The notes below the pieces were generated by a model. The model was not told the DNA's origin. It saw only the letters and a list, made by a program, of their open reading frames with translations, and ran no database searches. Source: Candidatus Neomarinimicrobiota bacterium (GTDB lineage: Bacteria; Fidelibacterota; Marinisomatia; Marinisomatales; S15-B10). Taken from it: a DNA stretch of 41,864 nt. A program made the translations under genes and the position numbers. This document shows, in pieces, positions 7,741-40,216 of the stretch; within the stretch, counting starts at the first letter, position 1; each line of letters opens with the position of its first letter. The stretch spans positions 1 through 41,864 of the forward strand of contig JAZGBI010000106.1 of the NCBI GenBank assembly GCA_036476315.1, given 5' to 3'.

Positions 7741-10098
7741 CTAAAAGGGCATTCCAAAGAGGATATGAAAATTCCACCCCTCAGGAGACTTGGACGTGGC
7801 AGGAATATCGTCGAAACCGTAACCGAGATCAAACCCGAGCATCCCCAGCATAGGCATAAACATCCGGATTCCAAATCCCGCCGAACGTTTAAGGTCAAAG
7901 GGATCAGTTTCCGTGAAGTCTTTCCAGACGTTACCCATTTCTGCAAATGCCAGGGCGTAAACCGTCGGATTCTCAGAGAAGGGAAATCTCAGTTCCAACA
8001 TCGCTTTCAACAAGACATTTCCCCCCAAGGGTTGTCCGCTGTAGGGACCCACCGTGTTGTCATCATACCCCCTCAACAGGATACCGTAGGGAATGCCACT
8101 TCCCCCCATGATGAATCTTTCATCAATGGGAATGATGGAACCACGTGGCGAAGGGAGTTCCTTGATGGAACCCATCTGAAAAGAATTCAGGAGAACAAAT
8201 TTCCAGACCAAGGGCGCATATGCGTCAAATTTTAGTACGTGTTTGTGAAAGTTTTCGTGTACGGGCAGGAGGCGGGTATCCAGAGGTCCACCCGACAAGG
8301 TGGATGTCCAGGAGAATACAGAACCTTCCGAAGGGAATTCCGGGTGATTCCTGCTGTCGCGAGTCACAAATTGAGTGAGGGCAAGTCCCACGGTTGTCTC
8401 CCGCCCCCGCACATACCTTTCGAGATCTTCCTCTGATCCCTCGTATCTCTTCTGAGTGCCCTGAACCATCCACGACGCCCGGAAATAGTTGTCGGGCCAT
8501 TTCAGCCGGCGCCCCACGCGGACCGACGCCCCGACAACCGTTCTGTCCAGCGGAAAGGAGTAATAGGTAACATTCTGACCCCTGAGGTAATAGAATGCGG
8601 AGAATCCCAACAGAACCGGAGTGTCCTTGACCATGGGATCAGTAAAATTAAAGGACAGTGATCGGTATCGGGACCTTTGTCGACTGGATACGAAATTGTA
8701 CTGGGTCCCCTGCTGAAAACTGAGTCCCAATTGCTGGCCCTTCCCGAGGAAATTGTTGAATTTGATACCGGCGCCGCCCATAATACCATACTCTTCTGTG
8801 AACCCGATAGAAGCGTTTGCCTCATCGGAAGACCGTTCTTCTACCGTAACCAAAAGGTCAATTTCATCTTCATCCACCGGAATAACGTCGGGTCTCACAT
8901 CGCTGAAATAATTGAGAATCATGATTTCCCGGGCACTTCGCATGAGCAGGTCACGGCTGAAGATGTCACCCGGCACGATCTTCATTTCTCGACGGACTAC
9001 GTTCTCCCGGGTTTTCGTGTTGCCTGTTATCTCAATCTTGCGAACCGAAACCTGATGATTCTCAGCAATGACGAAATGAACGTCAAGAGAATCCTCAGCC
9101 ACAGGCCTGATTTGAGGCTCGATTCTGCTGTATATGTAACCCCTGTCCATGTAAAGACCGTGCACTCCTTCATAAACTGCCTGGGTGAATTCCTCCTCGT
9201 TGTAGAGGTCACCTTTCGACAAGTTCAGTACAGACCCTAATTCCTTCTCTGAATAAAGCACATTTCCTTCCCAACTGAGATGACGGAGGTAATACTGGGG
9301 ACCTTCATACAACTTCAACTCAATAGTCATTCCACCGTTGTCATCCTCATACTCGATGGATTGAGACAGAATCCGGAAATCCCTGTACCCGCGGTTCCTG
9401 TAAAAAGACGCCAGGGCAGCCTTGTCCTCCTCAAATTTCTTCTCCTCAAAGTGAGATCGCCAGAAAAGGTACCACTTCTGGACCTTCGTGTTTTTCAGCC
9501 GGCGGCGGAGTTTCCGGTCTGAAAAAGCGTTGCTTCCAGTAAAACGAACCTCTCTCGTCTTAACCTTTCTGTTCCTTCGAACGTTGAAAACAATGTCTTT
9601 CACGTTATCCCTATTACCGTCCTTCAGCTCAACATCCACCTCCGCTTTCAGATACCCGTCCTCCCCGTAAAGTTTCCTTATTTTTTCCACAGATTCCTTC
9701 GCTAAGTAGGGTTGAAGTCTCTGCCCGGTAGTCAGATCCAGCGCTTCTTCGATATCCTTCTTTTTCTTCTTGTCGCCTTCAATCTTCACCTCACCCAAAA
9801 TGGGATTCTCTTCCACTTCTACTGTCACAAAGATGCCGTCGACGGTTTCCCGATCAAGGTGAATCTGTACATCTGAGAAAAGACCCGTTTGCCACAGCTT
9901 CCTCACCGCCCGTCCAAAATCGCCTGGACTGATTTCTTTTCCCTCCATGAGTCCAGACGTATACTTGATCACACTGGCAGCCGTCATATTATTCCCCGTC
10001 ACTTCCACTCCCAGAATATCCACCGACTGGACGGACTGTGCCGAGGCAAAGGAAAAGGAAGCGACGGCAAAAAGGATATATCTCACAAGATTTTTCAT
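7741..10098 (-). CDS. bamA: outer membrane protein assembly factor BamA
   Basis: Omp85 insertase that folds beta barrels into the outer membrane. The 785 residues comprise a signal peptide (cleavage after ASA, before Gln), about five POTRA repeats (for example VDILGVEVTGNNMTAASVIK, VKIEGDKKKKKDIEEALDLT, VRKIEITGNTKTRENVVRRE) and a C-terminal barrel. The barrel carries the lid-loop type motif IPYGILLRGYDDNTVGP and ends in ILFGMPF with a terminal Phe. The start overlaps the uppS stop (ATGA). There is a 107-bp gap before skp, but no terminator is visible there, so read-through is likely. Confidence 0.96.
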   Translation of the reverse strand: MKNLVRYILFAVASFSFASAQSVQSVDILGVEVTGNNMTAASVIKYTSGLMEGKEISPGDFGRAVRKLWQTGLFSDVQIHLDRETVDGIFVTVEVEENPILGEVKIEGDKKKKKDIEEALDLTTGQRLQPYLAKESVEKIRKLYGEDGYLKAEVDVELKDGNRDNVKDIVFNVRRNRKVKTREVRFTGSNAFSDRKLRRRLKNTKVQKWYLFWRSHFEEKKFEEDKAALASFYRNRGYRDFRILSQSIEYEDDNGGMTIELKLYEGPQYYLRHLSWEGNVLYSEKELGSVLNLSKGDLYNEEEFTQAVYEGVHGLYMDRGYIYSRIEPQIRPVAEDSLDVHFVIAENHQVSVRKIEITGNTKTRENVVRREMKIVPGDIFSRDLLMRSAREIMILNYFSDVRPDVIPVDEDEIDLLVTVEERSSDEANASIGFTEEYGIMGGAGIKFNNFLGKGQQLGLSFQQGTQYNFVSSRQRSRYRSLSFNFTDPMVKDTPVLLGFSAFYYLRGQNVTYYSFPLDRTVVGASVRVGRRLKWPDNYFRASWMVQGTQKRYEGSEEDLERYVRGRETTVGLALTQFVTRDSRNHPEFPSEGSVFSWTSTLSGGPLDTRLLPVHENFHKHVLKFDAYAPLVWKFVLLNSFQMGSIKELPSPRGSIIPIDERFIMGGSGIPYGILLRGYDDNTVGPYSGQPLGGNVLLKAMLELRFPFSENPTVYALAFAEMGNVWKDFTETDPFDLKRSAGFGIRMFMPMLGMLGFDLGYGFDDIPATSKSPEGWNFHILFGMPF

Positions 10099-10859
10099 GA
10101 GGTAGACACCGCAGTGGAATCTACAACTTTTCCAAAGCGTCTTTCCCGGTGTTGATAATCCAGAATCGCCTCATGCAATTCCGTTCTCCGGAAAGCCGGC
10201 CAGTGAACTGGAGTGACATAGATCTCTGCATAGGCAAGCTGCCACAGAAGGAAATTGCTTATGCGATGTTCACCGCTCGTTCGAATGATCATATCCGGAT
10301 CAGGGATATCAGCTGTATAAAGATAACGACTGAAAACATTCTCACTCAGATCCTCGGCTCTGACTTTCTCCAATGTGAAATCCCGGCAGAAATCCCGGAT
10401 TGCGTCCAGGATCTCTGAACGTCCGCCGTAGTTTAGCGCCAATACCAGATTCAATCCACTGTTACCTGCCGTGCGCCGGACACCTTCCTCCATCTCCTTT
10501 CTCGGTTCGCCTGGCAGTTCGTCCAGGCGGCCGATGACGTGGAGTCGTACGTTGTTTTCCATGAGATCATCAATTTCATTTCGAATGGTTTCCACAAGAA
10601 GTCTCATGAGAGCCGAAACTTCCGCCAGGGGCCGGGCCCAGTTCTCCATCGAAAATGTGTAGAGGGTGAGATACTCGATACCAAGTTCTCCACAACAGCG
10701 GGTAATCTCGCGGACCGAATTAATCCCCTCCCGGTGACCGGCAATACGAGGAAGCTTTCTCCGTTTGGCCCACCGGCCGTTTCCATCCATGATGATGGCA
10801 ATATGCCTGGGTAAATTCCCGTTCGCTTCGATTTGCTCTCTTAACCCCTGTCTGTTCAT
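10095..10859 (-). CDS. uppS: isoprenyl transferase UppS (undecaprenyl diphosphate synthase)
   Basis: Cis-prenyltransferase that builds the C55 lipid carrier for peptidoglycan and O-antigen. The family signature HIAIIMDGNGRWAKRR occurs near residue 20, followed by GHREGINSVREI, LTLYTFSMENWARP, LNLVLALNYGGRSEI, DMIIRTSGEHRISNFLLWQL and YAEIYVTPVHWPAF. It is the promoter-proximal gene of the envelope operon. In many bacteria uppS is followed by cdsA and dxr; here bamA follows directly and cdsA is absent from the window. Confidence 0.96.
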   Translation of the reverse strand: MNRQGLREQIEANGNLPRHIAIIMDGNGRWAKRRKLPRIAGHREGINSVREITRCCGELGIEYLTLYTFSMENWARPLAEVSALMRLLVETIRNEIDDLMENNVRLHVIGRLDELPGEPRKEMEEGVRRTAGNSGLNLVLALNYGGRSEILDAIRDFCRDFTLEKVRAEDLSENVFSRYLYTADIPDPDMIIRTSGEHRISNFLLWQLAYAEIYVTPVHWPAFRRTELHEAILDYQHRERRFGKVVDSTAVSTS

Positions 10860-11586: not shown

Positions 11587-12360
11587 TTAGAGGAATATGC
11601 CAAACTGCAAAGCATAATATTTGTAAATGAGGTCTCCCATAAGGATCGAAATTACCACCACGTAGAGGAGTCCTGTCGCTGACTGGGTCGAATGAATCTT
11701 CACAACACGTAACGTGAGCAAACAGAGGACTATGGGAAGAGCTGTTCCAAATAGGAGGGCTATCCCCAGGAAGAAACCGTTGAATGTCTCGATAAACTCA
11801 AGAATCGTAAGGAGGACTCCTCCTGCATCAACCGTTCCAATAAGCAGGTGAGATATATCCCAGAGAAGTCGGGCAGTCAACAGGGTAAGCAGTAAGAAGA
11901 CCGAACGCTTCAGCAGTCTGATAGGAAGATCCACAACGTTCAGATACCAGTGGCCGAGAAGCATGGAAAAGACGCTCCCACTGAGAATCAGACCGCCAAG
12001 AATCGATACTCCTTTGAACAAGAAATCGGACCCAGTGAGAGCGGTAATCGTCTCCATGACCAGCACAACACCAATCAGTGACGGAATGGTAACTACCCAT
12101 GCCTGGATTCGCTCCCGGTTCCAGTAGAACCAGGCGACAGACAGAAGGGAAACCAACCAGACAGCTGCCGACATTTTCACAACAAACCCTGCATCCATAA
12201 GACCGAAGAAGACGACGCCCATGCCTCCAACTAAACTGGCAAGACCTAAAATGAAACGGTGAAATCCGGGATCCATCTTTCCCGTGGCAGTTACCCAAAG
12301 AAAAACCGGGAATAGGCTCCCAAAAAGGAAAAAAGTGAGCGTGGAAATGATACCTAACAT
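11587..12360 (-). CDS. polytopic membrane protein of unknown function
   Basis: The 257 residues are almost entirely hydrophobic, with roughly eight predicted transmembrane helices and short loops. Recognisable landmarks are an N-terminal helix (LTFFLFGSLFPVFLWVTATG), a loop with FYWNRERIQAW, a central LLGHWYLNVVDLPIRLLKR and a C-terminal DLIYKYYALQFGIFL. The GHWYLN element, with His and aromatic residues at a helix end, could bind a cofactor, but that is speculation. It lies 72 bp after mrp and may be co-transcribed with it. I do not recognise the family. Confidence 0.7.
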   Translation of the reverse strand: MLGIISTLTFFLFGSLFPVFLWVTATGKMDPGFHRFILGLASLVGGMGVVFFGLMDAGFVVKMSAAVWLVSLLSVAWFYWNRERIQAWVVTIPSLIGVVLVMETITALTGSDFLFKGVSILGGLILSGSVFSMLLGHWYLNVVDLPIRLLKRSVFLLLTLLTARLLWDISHLLIGTVDAGGVLLTILEFIETFNGFFLGIALLFGTALPIVLCLLTLRVVKIHSTQSATGLLYVVVISILMGDLIYKYYALQFGIFL

Positions 12361-12432: not shown

Positions 12433-13578
12433 TTATGGTCCGGCAGCCACACGGTCTTCAATCGTGTCTGCAATACGGGAAAAGACCAAACTGATGGGCG
12501 AACCGGGATCTTTGATGGTCAAGGGAGTCCCGTCGTCGCAGGCCTCCATCAGCTCCTGAGAGATGGGAATCTCCCCGAGAAGAGGAACGTTAAGTCGTGC
12601 ACTTTCCCTGGACCCTCCTCCTCGCTTGAAAAGGTTTACGTCTATCTGAAACCGGCCCTCTGAATCAGATATCACGTCCGATACTTCGTCCATCCGAGGG
12701 AGAGAGATGACCGCACCACCAAGGGGATTCCCGGTTTCGTCGTGCACCAGACCCGATACTACGTAACCTGACATGTTTTCCACAACGCCCAGAACGGGTG
12801 CGCTCACTTTCCGGAACATATCGGCCCCTTTCCGCGCGTCAGAAACCGCCAGGTCCTGGGGTGTGGTCACAATGACCGCCCCGGAAATTCTCAACTTCTG
12901 CAATAGGGTCAGCTGCACATCGCCCGTTCCCGGGGGAAGATCCATGATCATATAATCCAGAGTCTCCCATAGCACATCGGAGAAAAACTGCTCTGTCATT
13001 CGAGAGATGAGGGGACCTCTCCATATGATGGGCGTTTCATTGCCGCTGAGGAACCCGAACGACATGATTTTCATTCCGAATTTTTCAAGGGGAATGAGCT
13101 TTCCTTCCGGCGTCGTCGCAGGTCTCTCATTGATACCGAGAAGAATAGGAAGGCTGGGCCCATATATATCGAGATCAAGAAGACCGACCTTCCGTCCGCG
13201 AGCGGCCAGAACGGCGGCAATATTCACAGCCACAGTGGATTTACCCACACCTCCCTTGCCGCTGGCTACCGCCACAGTGTATTTCACTCCCGGAATGAGA
13301 TCCTGATCTTCAACACGCGCTGTCCTCCCTTGAGCCTCTGAAGGTGCCGTAATTCTTATATCAATTGTCTCAAACGAACCGCCAGTCTGTAGCGTCTTCT
13401 CCACGCGATTCCTTATTTCAAGCTTGCTCTCTTCACTCATGGTGGACAGTTGAAGATCAACCACCACATTTCCCCGGTCGACTTCCACATCTTTAACGAT
13501 ACCGAAGGAAACAATGTCACGGCTGAAACCGGGATACTTCACAGATTTCAATAACTCAAGAACATCTTCTTTACTCAA
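12433..13578 (-). CDS. Mrp/NBP35-type P-loop ATPase (Fe-S carrier family) with an inserted domain
   Basis: Member of the Mrp/ApbC family of iron-sulfur cluster carriers. An N-terminal MIP18-like domain (about residues 1-80) precedes the ATPase, which has the deviant Walker A SGKGGVGKS, LDLDIYGPSLPILLG, IWRGPLISRM and DLPPGTGDVQLTL. The start is TTG 13578, with GGAG 8 nt upstream; the longer frame begins inside that ribosome binding site. After VVENMSGY, where most relatives have a CxxC cluster motif, about 45 residues are inserted: VSGLVHDETGNPLGGAVISL followed by SDSEGRFQI. This looks like a carboxypeptidase-regulatory-like beta sandwich. The normal LFKRGGG and VPLLGEIPI then resume. The CxxC motif is missing, so the usual cluster-bridged dimer should not form. 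Confidence 0.9.
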   Translation of the reverse strand: MSKEDVLELLKSVKYPGFSRDIVSFGIVKDVEVDRGNVVVDLQLSTMSEESKLEIRNRVEKTLQTGGSFETIDIRITAPSEAQGRTARVEDQDLIPGVKYTVAVASGKGGVGKSTVAVNIAAVLAARGRKVGLLDLDIYGPSLPILLGINERPATTPEGKLIPLEKFGMKIMSFGFLSGNETPIIWRGPLISRMTEQFFSDVLWETLDYMIMDLPPGTGDVQLTLLQKLRISGAVIVTTPQDLAVSDARKGADMFRKVSAPVLGVVENMSGYVVSGLVHDETGNPLGGAVISLPRMDEVSDVISDSEGRFQIDVNLFKRGGGSRESARLNVPLLGEIPISQELMEACDDGTPLTIKDPGSPISLVFSRIADTIEDRVAAGP

Positions 13579-13610
13579 TTGATCTTCTCCTTCCAAGACC
13601 CGGCCTAGAC

Positions 13611-13641
13611 AAAAAACGGCTGTTCACAAGAACAACCGTTT
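13611..13641 (-). terminator. rho-independent terminator of the ferredoxin gene
   Basis: On the minus strand a stem of about 12 bp (AAACGG-TTGTTC / GAACA-GCCGTTT, one mismatch) is followed by a T run. It begins about 20 bp after the ferredoxin stop and insulates the downstream mrp gene. Confidence 0.8.
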
Positions 13642-13662: not shown

Positions 13663-13950
13663 CTATTGTTCGCGACCGAAGTACTTGTAGTTCTTGGGAA
13701 TGTAGCTGGCCCATTCCTCGGGCACTTCACTCTCTTCAAAAATAGCTTCCACGGGGCATTCAGGCTCGCAGGCACCGCAGTCAATACACTCCTCCGGATC
13801 GATGTAGAGCATCTTGCCCTCAAGATCGTTTTCGTCATACCCCACTTCATCCCACTTTTCCTTGGTGGGGTGAATGCAATCCACCGGGCAAACGTCAACA
13901 CAAGCCGCATCACAAACGCCCACACAAGGTTCTGTAATGATGTATGTCAT
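13663..13950 (-). CDS. ferredoxin with two Fe-S cluster motifs
   Basis: A 95-residue soluble ferredoxin. The first motif is CVGVCDAACVDVCPVDCI (residues 9-26), with an expanded spacing typical of seven-iron ferredoxins; the second is CIDCGACEPECPVEAI, a standard 4Fe-4S motif. The insert between them, HPTKEKWDEVGYDENDLEGK, and the IDPEECIDCGACEPECPVEA core are usual for this small-ferredoxin family. AGGAGG lies 7 nt before the ATG. It is a single-gene unit with its own terminator, next to the Mrp gene. An electron-carrier role is well supported; its partners are unknown. Confidence 0.92.
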   Translation of the reverse strand: MTYIITEPCVGVCDAACVDVCPVDCIHPTKEKWDEVGYDENDLEGKMLYIDPEECIDCGACEPECPVEAIFEESEVPEEWASYIPKNYKYFGREQ

Positions 13951-24722: not shown

Positions 24723-27533
24723 TCAGCGTAATAGAATTATTTTGCGAGCGGCCGCAAACTCAGAGCTTCCCGTTGCGGAAATGCTGCAGAGATAGATTCC
24801 AGTACTCGCCGGCTTGCCCCGATCATCCGTTCCATCCCAAATGAGAGTTCTGAAACCAGGTTCCTCAATGCCATCAATCAACGATCTCGTGTGTCTACCC
24901 AGAAGATCGTAAATGGAGATGACCACGTGCGTCCGCTTGGGCAGAGAGTAGGGAATGGTGGTCCCAGCGTTAAAGGGATTGGGAAAATTTTGGTACAGTG
25001 CAAATCCAGTGGGAACGGGATTTTCTCCATCAGCGACGGAAATGGCCCCGAATTCAGACGAGCCCATGTCAGGCGCAGATCCTGTATAGTGATGGACAGC
25101 GACGTTGATCAGCGTGTCTCCATTCCACTCAAAGAAAGGAGTCCCCGTGTAAATACATGGCGAATCTTTCAACAGACGGAAATTCCGTGTGTCTGGATTG
25201 ACAAAGAGTGGATCCGCTTCAATATTTCCTTCCACTCGGTTGACCGTGCCGTTGCCGGCACTCGCACTGGTGTCTGTCTCCGGTGAGATATCCGAGTAAG
25301 CGATGGTGACCGAACTTGAGTCACCATAAGAAGCAAACATGATTTCAACCGGTTCGTTCTCCCAGAGTATGCAGTTCACGAGCTTCGGGATTGACCCGTA
25401 GAGAGCGTAAATGCCTCCGCTGGTGAAGCCCCTGTTCCCGCTTATGGTGCAGTGGAGGAATTCTGGGGCCGATCTGTCGCAGGCAACGGCTCCAGCAATG
25501 GAGCCCTCGTTCTCGATTATGGTAGTTTGCACAATCCTGGGGCGGGAATTCCGAATGTATATTCCGGCGCCCAGGAATGCGGGAATGACGTCTTCGCCTA
25601 TTCTGTTGTGGTTAACTGTCGAATGAACTATGATTGGGGTTGAATCGTCAACGATGTACAGGCCACCACCATAGTACGTCGCCGTGTTGTCCCTGATGAT
25701 GCAGTGATCGATGGTCGGACTAGAATGTCTTATGTGAACCCCGCCTCCCCTGTCTGAATGGCCGTTCAAAAGGGTAAAGCCTGCCAGAACTGCCGTTGTC
25801 TCCTCTTGGTCTTCGAATGTGACGACGCTGCCGGCGCTGTCTCCATCGATTATTGTCCGGGAAATATAAGAGGTGTCGCCAAGAATCAAGAACCGGGAGC
25901 CAAGAACAAGATCCTTTCCCATGAAGTTGATGTTTTCAGCATAAATCCCCGGGTCAACGAGCACGGTATCGCCTTCATATGCCAGGTCGATACCTTGCTG
26001 AATAGTAGCGAATGGGCTCTCCCCGGAACCACTGCCCGTGACATCCGAACCAGTTGTGGATACATGCCAGATTGGGCCAGCGTACGGGAAATTGAATGAT
26101 CCTGGCGTTCCAAAATCCCCACTTCCGTAGGGAAGCGAAGATTCGGCCCAGTACGATCCGACATTATTGTCCAACGCCGGATCCAGAAGCGCCATGGATT
26201 TTCCTTCTGGATCTGGAAACTCTGCGCCTCCATCGTATTCCACGCGGTCAATTTCCAGACTGTCCTCATTCATCAGGATAATCTCGTCGCTGCCATTGCC
26301 CAGGGTGATAGATGAATATTCATAATCCACAAGCACACCACCGTTAAGGCTGGAATCCCCCTCTCGCCCCATGACAAAATAGTGTCCGGGCTCAACGAGA
26401 AGGGGTCCCTCGGACTCCATGACGTGCCCGTCCTCTCCTTCGTCCCGAATCGTCCAGCCACGAAGATCAAACGACGCGGTATCCGCATTATACAGTTCGA
26501 ACCACTCTCCATCGTAATCACGGACGGCGTAGGGGTTTTGCATGATTTCGTTTATGACAATTCTGGGTGCTGACGAAACCGAGGACACCGGGAATTTCCA
26601 TCCAACAGGCCGGTGGTCAGAAAGGACAGAACCGTATTCAGAAACGATATCATCGAGACGGAAGGTTGTCGCCACACCGGCTCTCGCCTCATCAAAGAAC
26701 GCCCGTGAGATGAGGATGTGGTCGAGGAAACTGGGCCAGCTGGGATAGGAATCATAATAGTCCGCCGGGTCCTGGGCCAGGGGCAGCGTAACAAAGTGAA
26801 AGTTGATGGAATCATTGAGGAATTCAGTAAATGCGTTTTCATGAGGCGGATCCACCAGGTCATCGTTCCAGTCCCCGATAACGACAAAATTGGAATCCCC
26901 GGATTCCATCTCTTCCAGCAGGTACCCGTGAAGCAACTGCGCGGATATTCGTCTCCTTTCCAGATCCGTATTTTCAAAGTTGCAGCATTTTAGATGAACG
27001 CTCATGACGGAAAAATCTACGACCCCGACCCCACATTCCCAACGGAGGTCAACTTTGAGCGGCGGTCGGCTTGCGAAATAGTAGAGGGCATTGTTCTCAT
27101 AATCGTTGTCTCCGTCCTGCCCATAGAAAGTATCCTCCCAGATCTCATCACTCCCCTTAAGTGTAAGCACCTCCTTCCTGTACAGGATGGCCGTATTCGT
27201 GTAAAGCCCTCCCTCACTGAGAACATAGCCATAATTGGGCAGGAGGGACATTAATTGATTCACGAACGTCGATGCGTCCTCGATTTCCTGCACGGCATAG
27301 ATGTCCGCCATGATATCCAGCATAACCTCCGCCACTCCATTGACTGTTGTCATGCCGAGCTGTGGGAAGTTTTCGATATTCCACGTAACCATTTCAATTC
27401 CCTGCCAGTTGTTCCAGGTTGGAATGGGCCACTCGTCTTGAGGTGGCGAGACAAGAATGGTATCGGAAGGTGGACAATCTTGACCCCACAAGAATAGAAG
27501 GTGGAAGCAGACCATCCCTGCGAGGCGGTGCAT
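24723..27533 (-). CDS. secreted EEP-family nuclease with lamin-tail, beta-helix and type IX sorting domains
   Basis: Chosen start ATG 27533, 5 bp after the upstream stop and followed by a signal-like MHRLAGMVCFHLLFLWG then Gln. The 936-residue protein has an endonuclease/exonuclease/phosphatase domain with the complete motif set (MVTWNIENF, AVQEIED, SVHLKCC, VIGDWNDDL, FLDHILIS, LSDHRPV). A lamin-tail domain follows (RIVINEIMQNPYAVRDYDGE). Then comes a parallel beta-helix of the DUF1565/pectate-lyase type (ATIQQGIDLAYEGDTVLVDP). A FlgD-like C-terminal domain ends it (LYQNFPNPFNAGTTIPYSLP, IWDGTDDRGKPASTGIYL), typical of type IX cargo. It is probably an extracellular nuclease or phosphatase displayed or released by the SprA system. 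Confidence 0.85.
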   Translation of the reverse strand: MHRLAGMVCFHLLFLWGQDCPPSDTILVSPPQDEWPIPTWNNWQGIEMVTWNIENFPQLGMTTVNGVAEVMLDIMADIYAVQEIEDASTFVNQLMSLLPNYGYVLSEGGLYTNTAILYRKEVLTLKGSDEIWEDTFYGQDGDNDYENNALYYFASRPPLKVDLRWECGVGVVDFSVMSVHLKCCNFENTDLERRRISAQLLHGYLLEEMESGDSNFVVIGDWNDDLVDPPHENAFTEFLNDSINFHFVTLPLAQDPADYYDSYPSWPSFLDHILISRAFFDEARAGVATTFRLDDIVSEYGSVLSDHRPVGWKFPVSSVSSAPRIVINEIMQNPYAVRDYDGEWFELYNADTASFDLRGWTIRDEGEDGHVMESEGPLLVEPGHYFVMGREGDSSLNGGVLVDYEYSSITLGNGSDEIILMNEDSLEIDRVEYDGGAEFPDPEGKSMALLDPALDNNVGSYWAESSLPYGSGDFGTPGSFNFPYAGPIWHVSTTGSDVTGSGSGESPFATIQQGIDLAYEGDTVLVDPGIYAENINFMGKDLVLGSRFLILGDTSYISRTIIDGDSAGSVVTFEDQEETTAVLAGFTLLNGHSDRGGGVHIRHSSPTIDHCIIRDNTATYYGGGLYIVDDSTPIIVHSTVNHNRIGEDVIPAFLGAGIYIRNSRPRIVQTTIIENEGSIAGAVACDRSAPEFLHCTISGNRGFTSGGIYALYGSIPKLVNCILWENEPVEIMFASYGDSSSVTIAYSDISPETDTSASAGNGTVNRVEGNIEADPLFVNPDTRNFRLLKDSPCIYTGTPFFEWNGDTLINVAVHHYTGSAPDMGSSEFGAISVADGENPVPTGFALYQNFPNPFNAGTTIPYSLPKRTHVVISIYDLLGRHTRSLIDGIEEPGFRTLIWDGTDDRGKPASTGIYLCSISATGSSEFAAARKIILLR

Positions 27534-27537
27534 CAAC

Positions 27538-28614
27538 TCACCGAACGATCTCCGATGCAAAGACAAACTCGAATCCTTCTTCACTGAGTCGAGAAATCTC
27601 CCGTCGAAAGGCAGCCAGTGTTTTCTCTCTGGGATGGGCGATTCCAACAGCCACCCCTACCTCCCGTGCCTTCTCTTCCAGAACGGTCAATTGATTCAGC
27701 ACGGTCTCCTCATCGTCTTCGTAGTCAAGAAAGACATGTCTCACGGCAACGGGGACGTCGGCTCTTTGCATCTGTTCCACGGCCACGGATTTTGAACTGG
27801 TTCTGCTGTCGACAAAGTATTTCCGCTCTGCCCGCAATACTTCCGCCACGGTTCTCATGAGTCGCCTGTTCTCCGTCGCATCGGATCCTTGATGATTATT
27901 CACACCCTGCGCGTGAGGAATCTCAAGAAAAGCTCTCCTCAGCCGCGAGCGAATTTCGCTCTCTTTCTGGCCGGCCTTCAAAATAAATTCCTCTTCGCCG
28001 GCACGATGATCACTCGATTCCATGGGCATATGGACCATAACTTCAAAGCCAGCGTCATGGGCAAGGTCCGCCACCCGGCTGGAGAAAGCGTGCCCCGGCA
28101 GGACGGAAAACGTTGCCGGGACTCCAAGCTCCAGAAAATCGTTCACGATACTGTTCAGGCTATATCCAAAATCGTCAATGATGAGGCAGATTTTCCCCGC
28201 GTGGGTGGACATATCGGGCGTGCAGACCAACTCCGCAAACGGTTTCTCACGTGAGCCGAGGACAAAAGTGACATCTCTCGTTTTTTTGCTGATCGTGACC
28301 TTACCTACTCCCACGTCACGGTCTTTAAGAATTCTAGGGACGCTGTTGCTGATGCCCTCGGGCGTGTATCGACGTGGGTAAAGAAATTCATATACCCGGC
28401 CGGTAAGGCTTTTTGAGTTGCGGATAAAGAAAAGTCCGAGCGTCTTTTCGAGTGTCTTTTCCCTGACAACCCGGTCCCATGCCGATGCGGTGGGCGACAG
28501 CTCACGGTCCAGTAGACCCTTCTGCCGCTTCACATTGATGTAAAAAGCAAGAAGAAGGATAAGGACCAGCAGGACAAAGAGGAAGGAATGGTCTCTCTTT
28601 CCGAGCGGATCCAT
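27538..28614 (-). CDS. divergent polysaccharide deacetylase (YibQ/DUF610) family protein
   Basis: The protein has an N-terminal membrane anchor (FLFVLLVLILLLAFYINV) and an NodB-like fold of the divergent deacetylase family. Motifs include KICLIIDDFGYSLNSIVNDF, VPATFSVLPG, FEVMVHMPMESSDHR, GVNNHQGSDATENRRLM, YFVDSRTSS and GVAVGIAHPREKT. The family is thought to act on carbohydrates in the periplasm, often near cell-division or peptidoglycan genes; its substrate is not established. The start is ATG 28614, 8 bp after the stop of the PorV-like gene (a GTG lies one codon earlier). Its place inside the secretion operon is unusual. Confidence 0.88.
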   Translation of the reverse strand: MDPLGKRDHSFLFVLLVLILLLAFYINVKRQKGLLDRELSPTASAWDRVVREKTLEKTLGLFFIRNSKSLTGRVYEFLYPRRYTPEGISNSVPRILKDRDVGVGKVTISKKTRDVTFVLGSREKPFAELVCTPDMSTHAGKICLIIDDFGYSLNSIVNDFLELGVPATFSVLPGHAFSSRVADLAHDAGFEVMVHMPMESSDHRAGEEEFILKAGQKESEIRSRLRRAFLEIPHAQGVNNHQGSDATENRRLMRTVAEVLRAERKYFVDSRTSSKSVAVEQMQRADVPVAVRHVFLDYEDDEETVLNQLTVLEEKAREVGVAVGIAHPREKTLAAFRREISRLSEEGFEFVFASEIVR

Positions 28615-33934: not shown

Positions 33935-36900
33935 TCAGCCCCTAATGGCAATATTCACGTCAAATCCAAAATCGCGATCCACCTTCCGCCCCACCACGCG
34001 TGAGTCGCTTTCCCTGTATTCGAACCAGACGCCGCCGGTTACTGTCCGGGAAAAAGAGTAGGATATTCGAGGAGATATCTTCCACGACTTCCTTGTGGCA
34101 CTTGTGGATAGAGGGTACTCCGCACCGTTCCGTTCCCTTGTGACGGACTGGGTATGATCGAAGGTGAGGGAAAAATTCATCGTGTTTTCCATATTGAAGT
34201 CCCGGAAAAAGACCAGAGGAATATGCAAACCGCCCCGGTGGGCGTAACTCGACGTCGCCGTCCAGGAACGGTCCGTTTTGACGCGGGTGCTGTTGAGTCC
34301 ACTGAATCTGTTATCAACCGTTCGCACCGTTGAAAACCGCGTGGAAAAGGAGATCCCTTTCAAGATGGTCATGGAGAATCCGGCGACGGGTGAATATGAA
34401 GCGGTGTACTTTGAGGATAAGAGAACGTCACTTTGCCACGACCGTGTCTCTTTACCCGCGAAGGCATGGTCGAAGGAGGCAGATTTGGCAATCATTTTGA
34501 TAAGGGGCCATTTTTCAATACCCGACCAGCTCAAGCTCCAGCCAACGAAAGGGAAACCTTCTCCACCGCTGATTCCCGACGGCAAGAAGCCCCTGGTGAT
34601 TGACTCCCGGCTGATATTGTTTCCATCTAAACCCCTGGACCGATTATGAGAAAAGCTCACGGTCGTCCTGATTCTGGGTGTTATGGAGAGTCCGGATCTC
34701 AAGGAAATATCTCGCTGGCGTTGAATGGATCTGCGATTGACGCCTACTTCATCGCTGTAGGTGGCCCTGGGACCAAGCTCATTGTCAAAACCGAACCGGT
34801 AGGGGAGATTCACCTCGCCGAGCACGCCGAAATCGTTCTGTGATCTGTTCTCAGAAAATGTGATACTGATGGGACTGATGCGGCTCGCAGCCTCGTGCAG
34901 AGTCTTCAAGACACTTTTTAACGTTTCGTTCTCGGGTACTTTCTTGTCCGGTTCAGTCCCCCCTTCCTCTACCGTTTGGGGGGTCCTCCTGCTTCGCCGC
35001 CTGGATCCCCGTCCCACCGGCCGGGAAGGGGTATAGACAGTTTCAATAATTGACTTTGGGTTCAGTGTCAAAGAAGAGGAAAACCGGGTTTGGGAAGCGA
35101 TATTTGCCCCCTCCTGGGTGCTTTCAATGGGCTTTGACCACCGGTAATTGGTGCTGTAATTGAGAGACGGCTTGAGCCAGGTGAAAATGGTAGGCGTAAA
35201 GGTGGTGGACACATTGTCCGTTACATCCGAAACAATTCCGGGAGTCAGCGTCTTCAGGGCCTTCAGGTACTGGTTCTCGAATTTGTTCATGTTGCTCTTC
35301 ATGGACTTGGAATAATTCGTTTTCAGGTTTTCAAGAATCGTGTACCCGATCTTGAACGTCCGGCTGAGCCCCAGATTGTACACCCGTTTACTTTCTCCCA
35401 CCCTGGGCTTTGTCTCCGTCAGTGCCTCGCTCACTTTCATGGACATGTCGAACGACGACGGTGTGTAATACAGATGAATATCCGAAAACTTGCTGCCCAG
35501 TAATGGCACCTCTTTCAGGAATTTCAAGGGTCTCCAGTAATTGTCCCGGCCAAATGACAATCCGTAACCAGCCCCTCCAGTATTGCTTCGACCGAATCGC
35601 CGCTCGATTTGTTCGTCTGAACCCCATGTCTGACTTGTTGAAAATGAGGTATTCAACGGATCCAGGGTGTATCGTGTGTACCAGCGGTCCGACCGAGTCG
35701 ACTTGGTGAATGAAGTGCTCATTGCGACTTGCCGGCTTCGGGTCAGTGCGCTGTCTGGCGGACTATCCCCACTGAGCAGAATATCGGTACCGGGATAGTA
35801 CTTGGGTGTGGCCACGTTGTTGGAATAACTCAGGGATAGAGGTAAGCCCAAACCCCATGACTGGGGAAAGAATTTATTTAGATTCAGCCGGCTGTCAACA
35901 CGGACCCTCTCGGTTGTTTGGCCTGTCCCAAGACGCTGCTGCAGGACATGAAAATCGGCATGTTTCCGGCTGTAGGTGAGCGTAGCGTTTCCAAAATCCG
36001 CCAGATTGAGAGAGGATTGAAATCTCACCGCCGTACCGGCATCTTTCCTCACGTGGGAGAGGCGGAGCTCATCGAGCCATATCTCCCCACTCACGGGCTC
36101 TGTTGAGCTCTTGTTCCGGACCCCCACCTCAAAAAATTGAATCCGGGAAAGGGCCGGGCGTCCCTGAATAAGATAGGTTTTTACTGTATCTTCCCCGGAG
36201 TTTTCCGTAGCAATGTACTCCAGTGTTGAATCGGTCACAACAAACATATCCTCGGGATTCTTCCTCTTTATGTTGGTGGAATCCTTGCGCTTCAACCCTG
36301 TAAGAAAACCGAGATCGATGGACATGAAGTTTCTCTTTCTCTCTTCGTCCCACCCTTCATAAACAGGCTGGCGAATTTCGTAGAAATCATCACCCCGGCC
36401 GAAGCGAAGAAAGAACTCCACATCTGTGGAATCCTGCCAGATGTGATCACCTTCACCGTACGTAAAGAGTTTCATTTTTTCGTAAGTAAGATAACTCAAA
36501 GCCTTGTTACCCCGAAGCTCGATCAGGTTTTTCTGGGCGGCTCCCTCCTCGCCAGGCTTCAAGTTGTCGAAGGTGAGGACAAGGGACTGCTCTTTCTTCC
36601 TGATGCCGTACACCCGGTCGTATTCACCTCGAACGCCGATATCTTCAACACTCTGGGCATAGTCCTGGTTGTCTTCCGTATTCACCACGGTAACCGCAAA
36701 CACACTGTCGTCCGGAACAAATGGCCCGGTTCGGCCTTTTCTCACACCCCGCTCCTGCCACTCGTTACCCACCAACTCCACCTTGGCAATCTTGACTTCC
36801 GCTTCCTCAGGAATCCCCATCAGGCCAAGGCGCAGAAACTTAATGGTATCCCACGTGATGGCACCGTCCTTCTTCACCTTTGTGAAATCACTCAACGGAA

Positions 36901-39900
36901 TTCTGTAGAGTCGCCACTTCCCCATGCGCGAATCATTCTCTCCGCCCTTGTATTCACGCCAGTCCTCGCCGTAAAGGCTGAGATCAATGCTCATGGTGAA
37001 ATAATCATTGTTTCTGTCAGGAAAACCGTCACGGTTGATATCCTCTGTATCAGGATAACGGGCCCCCTCCATGGGCCGCTTAGCCGTACCGTTTCCATCA
37101 GTCCCGTTGATGTAACGGTATTTTTCTGGTCCCTCGCGCTCGGTTTCGTCGAAACTCCAATTGTCACCGTTGGGATCGCCAGGATCAAAGTCATCGGGAT
37201 CATCACTGTAATAGACATCATAACCCAACTGCAGGGCGGCCTCGTACGTGATATCGAGACAGCCGCCGTAGCCGTCCTCATAAGCATCCTCACACCCGTC
37301 CAGACCAATATCTTCATCGTCCTCCAGGAACGTATTCCCGATGGAAAGACCCGCTTCAGGCTCATCTTCCGTGTCAAACTCCCTGTTCCCGTTCTGGTCC
37401 TCGCTTATGAACCCCAGGTCGACGCTCATTCTGCCCTGTATGTCGTCATCTGTCAGCAGCCAGATTTCAAAAAATTTGCTCTGGGATTGATTGTAACTGC
37501 TCGAATAGAGACTTGCGGTAATCCCCCCCCACGTGGAGTCGGGATCCACGGATCCGATTTGTGTTTTCCGGCGAGAATAATTGAGAACCAGAATATCGGT
37601 CAAGTGATTTTGAGCCCGGGTACTGACCTCCTGCCTGGGCCAGATATCAGTGGTTCTTACCTGGGTGTACGGATTGTACCAGAATAGGTTGGCGCGATTC
37701 TTCCGGTCGAAGCCGAGCGGGGTGGATGAGAAGTTCCAGAATCTTCGCCTGATTGATGGACTCGACGTCCGCTTGGCTCCCTCGAAGTCATCAATGAATG
37801 CAACTCCCTCCCGGTCATCCGTCGTGGGATTGTCGACGGAATTGGGATTGGGTAGAACCTGGGCGAATTCTCCTTCAACTCTGAACGACGACGGTTTGTT
37901 CGTTTCAATAAGAGGAAGTTTGTCTATGGCCCGGGTAAGTAGGTCAAGATCGCTTTCATACCGGCCGTTTAAGTCCCAGATGAAATTCCGGGTGGGTTCA
38001 TATCCTACCTCAATTTTTTCATTAATAACGGACTGATTGTAGTAGAGAGCCGTCCCCCCTATGAAAGAATTGGGTCCCAGATCAATCTGGGCCCTGGCTC
38101 CCATGATAGTCTTCTTGTCAAATGAGACGAGTTCATGCTTGTCATAAAGGATGTTCAACTCGGCTCCCGGGTCATTGATATCTTCATTGAGTATCGTCAG
38201 TGTGCCCGTAAAATAGTCAATGGTATAATCTTTGCCGCGTTCAAGAGGACGATCATTGAGGTAAACCTCCTCACTCCCTTCCACAAGCATGAATCCACCG
38301 AGATTGATGGTGGCACTCTTGTTCTGATAGGTCGCCTCGATGTCAAACTTCGACTCTTTACGAATACTCTGGTAATCGAGGCTGCGATACATAAGGGCAT
38401 TATCCGGCAATATGGTGCTCAGACTGGGGCTTTGGTTCCCCTCACCGCGATAGTTTACCGTTCCGGCAAGAGAATCCAGCTCAAATGGATGAAGCATGGG
38501 GAGAATCAACTCACCCGTTACACGATTAATGATATTGGTGTTGTAGGTATCTATCAAATCGTCGGGAATTGGCTCACTGTCAACATCGAGACTGTCGAGA
38601 CCGAACAGGTGAAGGAATGTATTCCCATCCGAATCCCGTTCGTCGTTACCCAGGGCGCCGTCCTTGTAGAGAATCTTAACTTCGAACCCCACGGGATTGA
38701 TGTTGGTGGCGCCCAGGTAGTAAACGTTCTTGAAGGCCAGAGGCCAGGTAGGGTGAGGAGGACTTGGCGTCAACGGCTTGATGAGTTTCAGATGAATGGT
38801 TTCTCCTTGCGATACGTCCTCAGTCAATTGCCCCACGGCTCGTATGACGGCTGTTTTGTCCCGCTCAGACAGAGTGTAGGATACAGCGAGTATCTCATTC
38901 TGAACAGGTGTGGTGAGACGGATAAAACCCAGATCCTCGCTCACCACGTAATCGACGTCTCTCTCAAGGAGCTGAAAAAGGCTCCCCTCCGTATAGCTGC
39001 TGTCTTCACTGTTACTCTCCCTCCACCTTGATTGAGTCTCGTCGAAATAGGGGTTCACATATGCGAGGCCGTTCAAAGTTCCAGCACTACCCAGAGACCC
39101 CACAGACTTGAAAACTTCGATTTCCTTGATCACCACGTTTCCGATACGGTGCTTCCCGTCTTTCAACGGATAGAAACTGGGGACGAAAAGAAGACCGCTC
39201 TCCTCTCCATACCTGAACAGTTGATCGACGAAAAAATACTGGTTCTTCCGGTACTGGTAATCCGGAATAGTCTGTCCCTGCGACTTCGCACCATCCTTGA
39301 ATTGCTGTTTCTCCTTCCTGGTCTTTTCAATAGAGGCCAGTGCCGTGACGTCAACCGGTCCAAGCTTCATGAGGGATTTCAGTCCAAACAGTCCCTGGTT
39401 ACTCCCGGAAAACGTCACAAACTGGGTTGAGGGTAACGAGAGGGATATGTTTCCTGCTTCAATCTTCTGCACAATCTCGTCTTCGGTTCCCGCATAGTTG
39501 ATCTTGATTTGATTCTCCCAGTCAACGTCCCTCTCACTGTCCATGTCCATCAAAACGCTGACTCGTTCGCCCACCTTTCCCTCGAGCATAAGGTTTTGAC
39601 GCTGGTCAAACTCAAAGTGCGTTGTTTGCGCTTGGCGCAGGTTCGAACGGGAAAGCTCCTGATCCTGGAACACCATCTTCCCTGACACATTGATGTTCCC
39701 ACTGATGTTCAAGGACGCCCGTCCCACCCCTGTTTCCACACCCATAAGCTCAAAGGAACCTCGTCGACGGCGCTGACGTTCGTCCGAGGCCGACAGATCA
39801 GTCAGCCTGAAAAAATTTGAGACGCCGTTCCTGGCCAGGCGCTCTCGAAAATACCAATCCACAGGAGCTGAAAAGGGTACCTTGAAGAATGTGCCATTGT

Positions 39901-40216
39901 GGGCCTCAAAGAGAGTTATGAGACTCCAGTCTTCCTCAATTTCCGTCCATCGTTCTGTACCGTCATCTTCCGGTTTGAGAATACTTCTGGTGGTCGTGGC
40001 ACTGTCCACGGAAAACATAAAGGTGAGTTGATTATCAAATGGTTCCACGATCCAGAGAGAGCCACGTCCGTTCACAAAGGATATGCTGTTTTGGACGGAA
40101 TTCGCCCCCTGTCCGCAGAGGGGGGAGAAAACCCTGAGGAACAAAAGAAAGAAAACCGCTATTGCTGTTCTCGTTTGCCGGCTCAACTGACTGAGCCCGC
40201 CGAGGATCTCATCCAT
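33935..40216 (-). CDS. sprA: SprA/Sov-type type IX secretion translocon protein
   Basis: A 2093-residue outer-membrane protein. SprA/Sov forms the very large beta barrel of the type IX translocon in Bacteroidota. Matching features: a signal peptide ending SPLCG then Gln, N-terminal NSISFVNGRGSLWIVEPF, EFDQRQNLMLEGKVGERVSV, the conserved VQKIEAGNISLSLPSTQFV and SGSNQGLFGLKS region, AYVNPYFDETQSRWR, long middle blocks with acidic calcium-loop-like stretches (DTEDINRDGFPDRNNDYFT) and many barrel strands in the C-terminal third. It ends FDVNIAIRG. The start is ATG 40216. It is the first gene of the operon reading to about 23782. No porK-N components are present in the window. Confidence 0.93.
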   Translation of the reverse strand: MDEILGGLSQLSRQTRTAIAVFFLLFLRVFSPLCGQGANSVQNSISFVNGRGSLWIVEPFDNQLTFMFSVDSATTTRSILKPEDDGTERWTEIEEDWSLITLFEAHNGTFFKVPFSAPVDWYFRERLARNGVSNFFRLTDLSASDERQRRRRGSFELMGVETGVGRASLNISGNINVSGKMVFQDQELSRSNLRQAQTTHFEFDQRQNLMLEGKVGERVSVLMDMDSERDVDWENQIKINYAGTEDEIVQKIEAGNISLSLPSTQFVTFSGSNQGLFGLKSLMKLGPVDVTALASIEKTRKEKQQFKDGAKSQGQTIPDYQYRKNQYFFVDQLFRYGEESGLLFVPSFYPLKDGKHRIGNVVIKEIEVFKSVGSLGSAGTLNGLAYVNPYFDETQSRWRESNSEDSSYTEGSLFQLLERDVDYVVSEDLGFIRLTTPVQNEILAVSYTLSERDKTAVIRAVGQLTEDVSQGETIHLKLIKPLTPSPPHPTWPLAFKNVYYLGATNINPVGFEVKILYKDGALGNDERDSDGNTFLHLFGLDSLDVDSEPIPDDLIDTYNTNIINRVTGELILPMLHPFELDSLAGTVNYRGEGNQSPSLSTILPDNALMYRSLDYQSIRKESKFDIEATYQNKSATINLGGFMLVEGSEEVYLNDRPLERGKDYTIDYFTGTLTILNEDINDPGAELNILYDKHELVSFDKKTIMGARAQIDLGPNSFIGGTALYYNQSVINEKIEVGYEPTRNFIWDLNGRYESDLDLLTRAIDKLPLIETNKPSSFRVEGEFAQVLPNPNSVDNPTTDDREGVAFIDDFEGAKRTSSPSIRRRFWNFSSTPLGFDRKNRANLFWYNPYTQVRTTDIWPRQEVSTRAQNHLTDILVLNYSRRKTQIGSVDPDSTWGGITASLYSSSYNQSQSKFFEIWLLTDDDIQGRMSVDLGFISEDQNGNREFDTEDEPEAGLSIGNTFLEDDEDIGLDGCEDAYEDGYGGCLDITYEAALQLGYDVYYSDDPDDFDPGDPNGDNWSFDETEREGPEKYRYINGTDGNGTAKRPMEGARYPDTEDINRDGFPDRNNDYFTMSIDLSLYGEDWREYKGGENDSRMGKWRLYRIPLSDFTKVKKDGAITWDTIKFLRLGLMGIPEEAEVKIAKVELVGNEWQERGVRKGRTGPFVPDDSVFAVTVVNTEDNQDYAQSVEDIGVRGEYDRVYGIRKKEQSLVLTFDNLKPGEEGAAQKNLIELRGNKALSYLTYEKMKLFTYGEGDHIWQDSTDVEFFLRFGRGDDFYEIRQPVYEGWDEERKRNFMSIDLGFLTGLKRKDSTNIKRKNPEDMFVVTDSTLEYIATENSGEDTVKTYLIQGRPALSRIQFFEVGVRNKSSTEPVSGEIWLDELRLSHVRKDAGTAVRFQSSLNLADFGNATLTYSRKHADFHVLQQRLGTGQTTERVRVDSRLNLNKFFPQSWGLGLPLSLSYSNNVATPKYYPGTDILLSGDSPPDSALTRSRQVAMSTSFTKSTRSDRWYTRYTLDPLNTSFSTSQTWGSDEQIERRFGRSNTGGAGYGLSFGRDNYWRPLKFLKEVPLLGSKFSDIHLYYTPSSFDMSMKVSEALTETKPRVGESKRVYNLGLSRTFKIGYTILENLKTNYSKSMKSNMNKFENQYLKALKTLTPGIVSDVTDNVSTTFTPTIFTWLKPSLNYSTNYRWSKPIESTQEGANIASQTRFSSSLTLNPKSIIETVYTPSRPVGRGSRRRSRRTPQTVEEGGTEPDKKVPENETLKSVLKTLHEAASRISPISITFSENRSQNDFGVLGEVNLPYRFGFDNELGPRATYSDEVGVNRRSIQRQRDISLRSGLSITPRIRTTVSFSHNRSRGLDGNNISRESITRGFLPSGISGGEGFPFVGWSLSWSGIEKWPLIKMIAKSASFDHAFAGKETRSWQSDVLLSSKYTASYSPVAGFSMTILKGISFSTRFSTVRTVDNRFSGLNSTRVKTDRSWTATSSYAHRGGLHIPLVFFRDFNMENTMNFSLTFDHTQSVTRERNGAEYPLSTSATRKSWKISPRISYSFSRTVTGGVWFEYRESDSRVVGRKVDRDFGFDVNIAIRG

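Follow-up and report, generated by a model that had tools for sequence, protein, structure and literature searches.

In a lineage of Fidelibacterota, the Mrp-family ATPase has lost the CxxC motif at the iron-sulfur cluster site, and the site is occupied by a short, beta-rich module that is inserted in frame into an otherwise intact protein. Judged from the aligned sequences, this swap is real, inherited and selected for in the lineage that contributed the window, i.e., the whole stretch of 41,864 nucleotides that was analyzed (contig JAZGBI010000106.1 of assembly GCA_036476315.1, C106 in our numbering). A wider proposal, i.e., that the order and parts of the class traded the bridging cluster for a beta module at the dimer face, and that CxxC and module were interchanged repeatedly in one gene, is offered tentatively and with slightly more doubt than confidence.

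The mrp gene is located at 12433..13578 on the minus strand. Its longest open reading frame begins at 13596 (frame 12433-13596, minus strand), but the TTG at 13578 is more likely to be the start, because it is preceded by AAGGAG and homologues begin at the residue encoded there; the predicted product would then have 381 residues. The protein consists of an FeS_assembly_P (DUF59/MIP18) domain (13384..13572, minus strand; residues 9-71, E 1.4e-9) and a NUBPL-type P-loop NTPase domain (PF10609), which is broken into two matches by the insert. The core as far as the insert is encoded at 12754..13287 (minus strand; E 7.5e-77), and the C-terminal part past the insert, which starts with LFKRGGG, at 12436..12633 (minus strand), with a second PF10609 stretch at 12460-12639 (E 1.9e-8). 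An earlier note on this DNA had already assigned the protein to the Mrp family, and these domain matches agree with that assignment. The hallmark of Mrp/NBP35/ApbC proteins, the deviant Walker A motif GKGGhGK[ST], is present together with the related nucleotide motifs: GKGGVGKS (13237..13260, minus strand), which is conserved in the homologue alignment, LDLDIYGPS and DLPPGTGD are all intact; the same note had read the Walker motifs as intact. The DUF59 domain has YPG instead of DPE, a form also found in a Prevotellaceae Mrp (L042), and is without the Cys-Pro motif present in L040 and L041. A second, CxxC-bearing Mrp was not found in the window's genome (2.6 Mb, 95.8% complete), in which the other PF10609 matches are weak or partial. 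In G008, from the window's family, a candidate second Mrp-like ATPase with a CxxC (VENMSMHVCSQCGHEEKLFPG) was seen at L181 (G008:C82:6000-9000), possibly a contamination of that assembly.

In characterized Mrp/NBP35 proteins, the bridging cluster is bound by the CxxC motif, to which an essential role has been ascribed (PMC6345978, PMC8593673). The window's Mrp lacks this required motif. Its frame reads GVVENMSGY-VVSGLVHDETGNPLGGAVISLPRMDEVSDVISDSEGRFQIDVN-LFKRGGGSRESARLNVPLLGEIPI, with a 43-residue insert, VVSGLVHDETGNPLGGAVISLPRMDEVSDVISDSEGRFQIDVN, between VENMSGY and LFKRGGG (12634..12762, minus strand; residues 279-321 counted from the start at 13596), so that the absence of CxxC and the in-frame insertion, both noticed earlier, are borne out. 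Against the ApbC equivalog NF008669, the protein scores 287.3 bits, below the curated cut-off of 348.

The suggestion that the insert might be a lineage trait was confirmed. Row counts take in a few loci of one and the same genome; on this basis, the insert is found in all 52 orthologue rows of the window's order, which represent 15 families, with a length of 24-44 residues and always between ENM and [LIV]FK.GGG. It is also present in all 10 rows of family f20 and in one row of f18, whilst f16 comprises both insert rows and CxxC rows, five rows of f19 have CxxC, and one row of f17 has a degenerate site, FICPDTQKSYKIF, with a single cysteine. Outside the class, the 22 rows read all retain CxxC and are free of the insert. 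Four rows that a script had flagged 'noC' were inspected by eye, which revealed the insert in three. Altogether, the insert was encountered at the equivalent place in ~75 other sequence rows, which provides the confirmation in independent assemblies that the earlier note had proposed.

The insert had been read as resembling a carboxypeptidase-regulatory-like domain. It is indeed beta-rich and matches the CarboxypepD_reg profile (PF13620) better than expected by chance, with an E value of 5.8e-6 when the full-length protein is searched and 2.5e-7 when the insert is searched by itself, but only half of the profile is covered (positions 2-43 of 82), and the score of the insert alone, 31.4 bits, is just below the cut-off of 32.3. 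Besides CarboxypepD_reg, the SusC N-terminal extension, Big_1 and Glucodextran_B are matched in the first half of their sandwich profiles. Whereas those domains belong to secreted proteins, the insert, with its half profile and its score below the cut-off, is located inside a cytosolic ATPase. The term 'extracellular-type domain' used in the earlier note needs correcting, also since the inserts are shorter in much of the order and do not score with CarboxypepD_reg there. Among the long inserts, 15 of 21 match CarboxypepD_reg at E below 0.01 (best 1.4e-7), and 8 of 15 shorter inserts of the window's order match Glucodextran_B; no consistent family match was obtained in the profile search for the inserts of f16 and f18. 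The three insert groups align profile-to-profile with probabilities of 96.7% and 92.7% and have the pattern hxhxGxh ... hxhxG ... DxxGxFxhxh in common, in which the conserved positions are glycines and hydrophobic strand residues. When compared with solved chains, the long-insert profile matched, among other sandwiches, the N-terminal domains of SusC homologues and intradiol dioxygenases. In the window's genome, 28 CarboxypepD_reg stretches were counted, the Mrp insert included, so that possible donors for the insert are plentiful.

An AlphaFold model of the window's Mrp, based on nine sequences, has a mean pLDDT of 79.6. In this model, a strand at residues 268-283 extends out of the core into the insert and is followed by strands at 296-298, 307-309, and 315-320, i.e., about four strands with a pLDDT of 66-88 by block and an uncertain loop past residue 300. 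The insert folded in isolation yielded a poor model (pLDDT 49). Of the sandwich-like insertion read in the earlier note, the full model shows strands rather than a complete sandwich, and the insert is best described, as modeled, as a small beta module of about half a sandwich rather than a whole domain.

The loss of cysteines extends beyond the CxxC motif itself. Two cysteine columns are occupied in 100% of the 24 CxxC bearers, whereas in the alignment of 47 insert-bearers the fullest cysteine column reaches 21%. Approximately 33 insert-bearing proteins, in sequences trimmed to start 18 residues before YPG, do not contain any cysteine, which makes a cluster ligated by the protein's own cysteines impossible in these members; judged by conservation, such a cluster is unlikely in the remaining insert-bearers as well. 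The Walker A, Walker A', Walker B/switch II, WRGP, and TTPQ motifs are retained at similar rates in the insert group and the CxxC group. In most close pairs, dN of the insert is well below dS, while often above dN of the rest of the protein; these are rough estimates over 33-44 codons. On these figures, the insert itself is under purifying selection.

The loss of CxxC by itself is not unique to the window's lineage, because most of the Bacteroidota Mrps that were read are also without it. Mrp was found in 117 of 118 Bacteroidota genomes, and in none of these did the match to the window's protein continue beyond residue 288. The best-scoring 30 of the 117 were read; most have lost CxxC by substitution at about normal length, and the insert was absent from all 30. 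These CxxC-less Mrps have the same domain order as the window's Mrp, but their sites, which are of the type PDTGKRYDIFG or PPDMPDKKYYIFG, are near-normal in length where the latter has the beta insert. Their annotation as 'cluster carrier' appears doubtful. Among the Bacteroidota loci read (L151-L180), some retain CSHCG. The earlier note had considered the arrangement undescribed. This can be maintained for the insert, since no paper on an insert-bearing Mrp variant was found in the open-access literature, but not for the absence of CxxC, given how common it is in the Bacteroidota Mrps read. The new part is the beta module at the cluster site; the CxxC loss was already visible in the databases and is, as far as we found, undiscussed in open publications.

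The ApbC/Mrp carriers (NCBIfam NF008669, PF10609; solved structure 8zkc) share with the window's Mrp the fold of a DUF59 domain plus a deviant-Walker P-loop domain, and the latter differs from them by the beta insert at the site of the missing CxxC. The nearest solved folds to its model are ApbC and Cfd1, followed by ATPase-type HypB. The ATPase-type HypB of Thermococcus (3vx3, 5aun) is an ATPase of the Mrp/MinD family that functions in metal-centre maturation via a docked partner; it forms complexes with the metallochaperone HypA, and a nickel site has not been identified in HypB itself (PMC7055735). In contrast to the window's Mrp, HypB is without DUF59 (a 248-residue chain), serves nickel hydrogenases, is much less similar and has no counterpart of the insert in the alignment. 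The hypA gene was not seen beside mrp among the neighbor genes examined.

The genomic context connects the two states of the site. Directly upstream of mrp, a profile match identified an FdxA-like dicluster ferredoxin gene (13663..13950, minus strand), which adjoins mrp in most of the class, whether the site has CxxC or the insert. Between the two genes, a hairpin search revealed a terminator-like structure, AAACGGTTGTTC-TTGT-GAACAGCCGTTT, with a T-rich tail (13614..13641, minus strand); its function as a terminator is only suggestive, the hairpin count of the region being no higher than in shuffles. Frequently, mrp is followed downstream by the gene for a 257-aa protein without a confident Pfam match (11587..12360, minus strand). 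Conserved neighbors are uppS, encoding undecaprenyl diphosphate synthase (10095..10859, minus strand; it shows the positional orthology of the locus), and bamA, encoding a protein with POTRA and Omp85 domains (7741..10098, minus strand). Within the class, genes are repeatedly arranged as fdx, mrp, (257-aa protein, zinc-ribbon protein), uppS, bamA, with insert or CxxC, and the order mrp, uppS, bamA is found outside the class, too. Since the order fdx-mrp-uppS-bamA accompanies either state, the CxxC-bearing and insert-bearing mrp genes are positional orthologues, i.e., one orthologous gene. Thus, the window's Mrp is orthologous, by sequence and by gene position, to the CxxC-bearing Mrps of the phylum, and its core and DUF59 domain are ~50% identical to those of CxxC relatives.

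The ferredoxin beside mrp suggests a link to iron-sulfur work. In Helicobacter pylori, ApbC was found to interact with FdxA in a two-hybrid assay, although that FdxA is YfhL-like and of a different subfamily (PMC8144621). Adjacency to the ferredoxin was rejected as a strict replacement for CxxC, since it adjoins genes of either state and is not found beside some insert-bearing genes. Of the 20 genomes tested, 18 have SUF proteins and 13 have A-type carriers, irrespective of the Mrp state, and the window's genome has both. A search for the Nfu domain (PF01106) was negative in all 20 Fidelibacterota genomes, whichever Mrp state they have, but positive in 5 of 14 controls. Elsewhere in the window, a 2093-aa protein (33935-40216, minus strand) matches SprA_N (E 2.6e-42), a component of the type IX secretion translocon in Fidelibacterota, and a 974-aa protein (24723-27647, minus strand) combines an endonuclease/exonuclease/phosphatase domain, a lamin tail domain and a beta-helix with an FlgD_ig-like end.

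How the site evolved was considered from trees. In an Mrp tree computed without the insert columns, the CxxC-bearing f19 and part of f16 fall within the insert-bearing class. Grouping all insert-bearers together was rejected in an AU test (p = 0.015; a comparison of two trees under one model, with long branches among the sequences), which is moderate evidence against a single group. A tree of the neighbors UppS and BamA showed the same interleaving of states and strongly supported the position of f20 beside f16-f19. Since the Mrp tree and the neighbor tree both interleave the states, it appears that the site has switched more than once or that the segment has been exchanged. Families f16 to f19 mostly have a derived IF.G.G motif just past the site in either state, which speaks for a change of state inside this group. 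Three histories may explain this distribution: the insert was gained once in the ancestor of the class and CxxC came back at least twice; the insert was gained several times; or the short segment was exchanged by recombination.

What may an Mrp without a cluster site do? We somewhat favor the possibility that it is a retained ATP switch that carries no cluster. The CxxC, by which a [4Fe-4S] cluster is usually bound between the two subunits of the dimer, has been replaced by the beta-strand module of 24-44 residues. The Mrp of the lineage would not carry a cluster itself, and the ATP-driven dimer switch would persist. The module would continue the core strand from which CxxC usually follows and may provide a dimer-stabilizing or partner-docking surface at the face of the absent bridging cluster, whilst cluster hand-over would be performed by partners, e.g., the SUF scaffold, an A-type carrier or the adjacent ferredoxin. 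Consistent with this possibility are the uniform presence of the insert in the order and in f20 versus CxxC in every row outside the class, the cysteine-free proteins with their retained nucleotide motifs, the low dN of the insert relative to dS, and the strand running from the core into the insert. The gene order is kept with either state, and no further Mrp was found in the window's genome. The HypB-HypA complex offers an example among the nearest folds (PMC7055735), and the H. pylori ApbC-FdxA interaction a precedent for an Mrp-ferredoxin pair (PMC8144621). However, the ferredoxin also adjoins CxxC members and does not, therefore, track the insert, and in the window the terminator-like hairpin parts it from mrp.

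Alternatively, the protein may have left iron-sulfur biogenesis for a MinD/ParA-like or HypB-like role, with the insert recognizing a different client, e.g., one in envelope assembly alongside the products of uppS and bamA. The disappearance of every cluster ligand, the phylum-wide location of the gene beside uppS and bamA, and the existence of members with other roles in the Mrp/MinD family, such as ATPase-type HypB, would fit such a change. Yet, the uppS-bamA neighborhood is equally strong in CxxC members, the DUF59 domain and Mrp core have kept their ~50% identity to CxxC relatives, and the alternation of the states in one orthologous gene suggests a shared core job, and we consider this alternative unlikely. 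Slightly less probable still is that the protein remained a cluster scaffold. Ligation by non-cysteine residues or by cysteines of a partner, such as the ferredoxin or the A-type carrier, is possible in principle and might also apply to the CxxC-less Mrps that are widespread in Bacteroidota, which indicate that members of the family may sometimes do without cysteines of their own; the ferredoxin adjoining mrp in most of the class and the presence of an A-type carrier and SUF in the window's genome would supply candidates. Nevertheless, conserved cysteines are lacking, and the glycines and hydrophobic residues conserved in the insert do not constitute a ligand set. We think it improbable that the insert is a neutral spacer in a loop that degenerated once the cluster function was lost: its variable length (24 to 44 residues), loose sequence and often elevated dN relative to the rest of the protein would be expected of a spacer, but dN still is well below dS in most pairs, the hxhxGxh...DxxGxFxhxhD pattern is kept over the class, every order member has the insert, and Bacteroidota lost CxxC without any filler. 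Finally, an assembly chimera or a frame error as the source of the missing CxxC and the insert is ruled out, to all intents and purposes, by the occurrence of the insert at the same site in many genomes and contigs of independent origin.

The role of ATP hydrolysis in Mrp/ApbC/NBP35 proteins has been described as unclear (PMC6345978). A conserved, natural cysteine-free Mrp with intact ATP motifs parts the ATPase role from cluster carriage and offers a direct way to test the purpose of the ATPase. The automatic label 'iron-sulfur cluster carrier protein' is unsafe for the window's lineage and for much of Bacteroidota. If the Mrp of this lineage indeed is an ATP switch that carries no cluster, cluster binding would be separable from the ATPase role that Mrp has retained.
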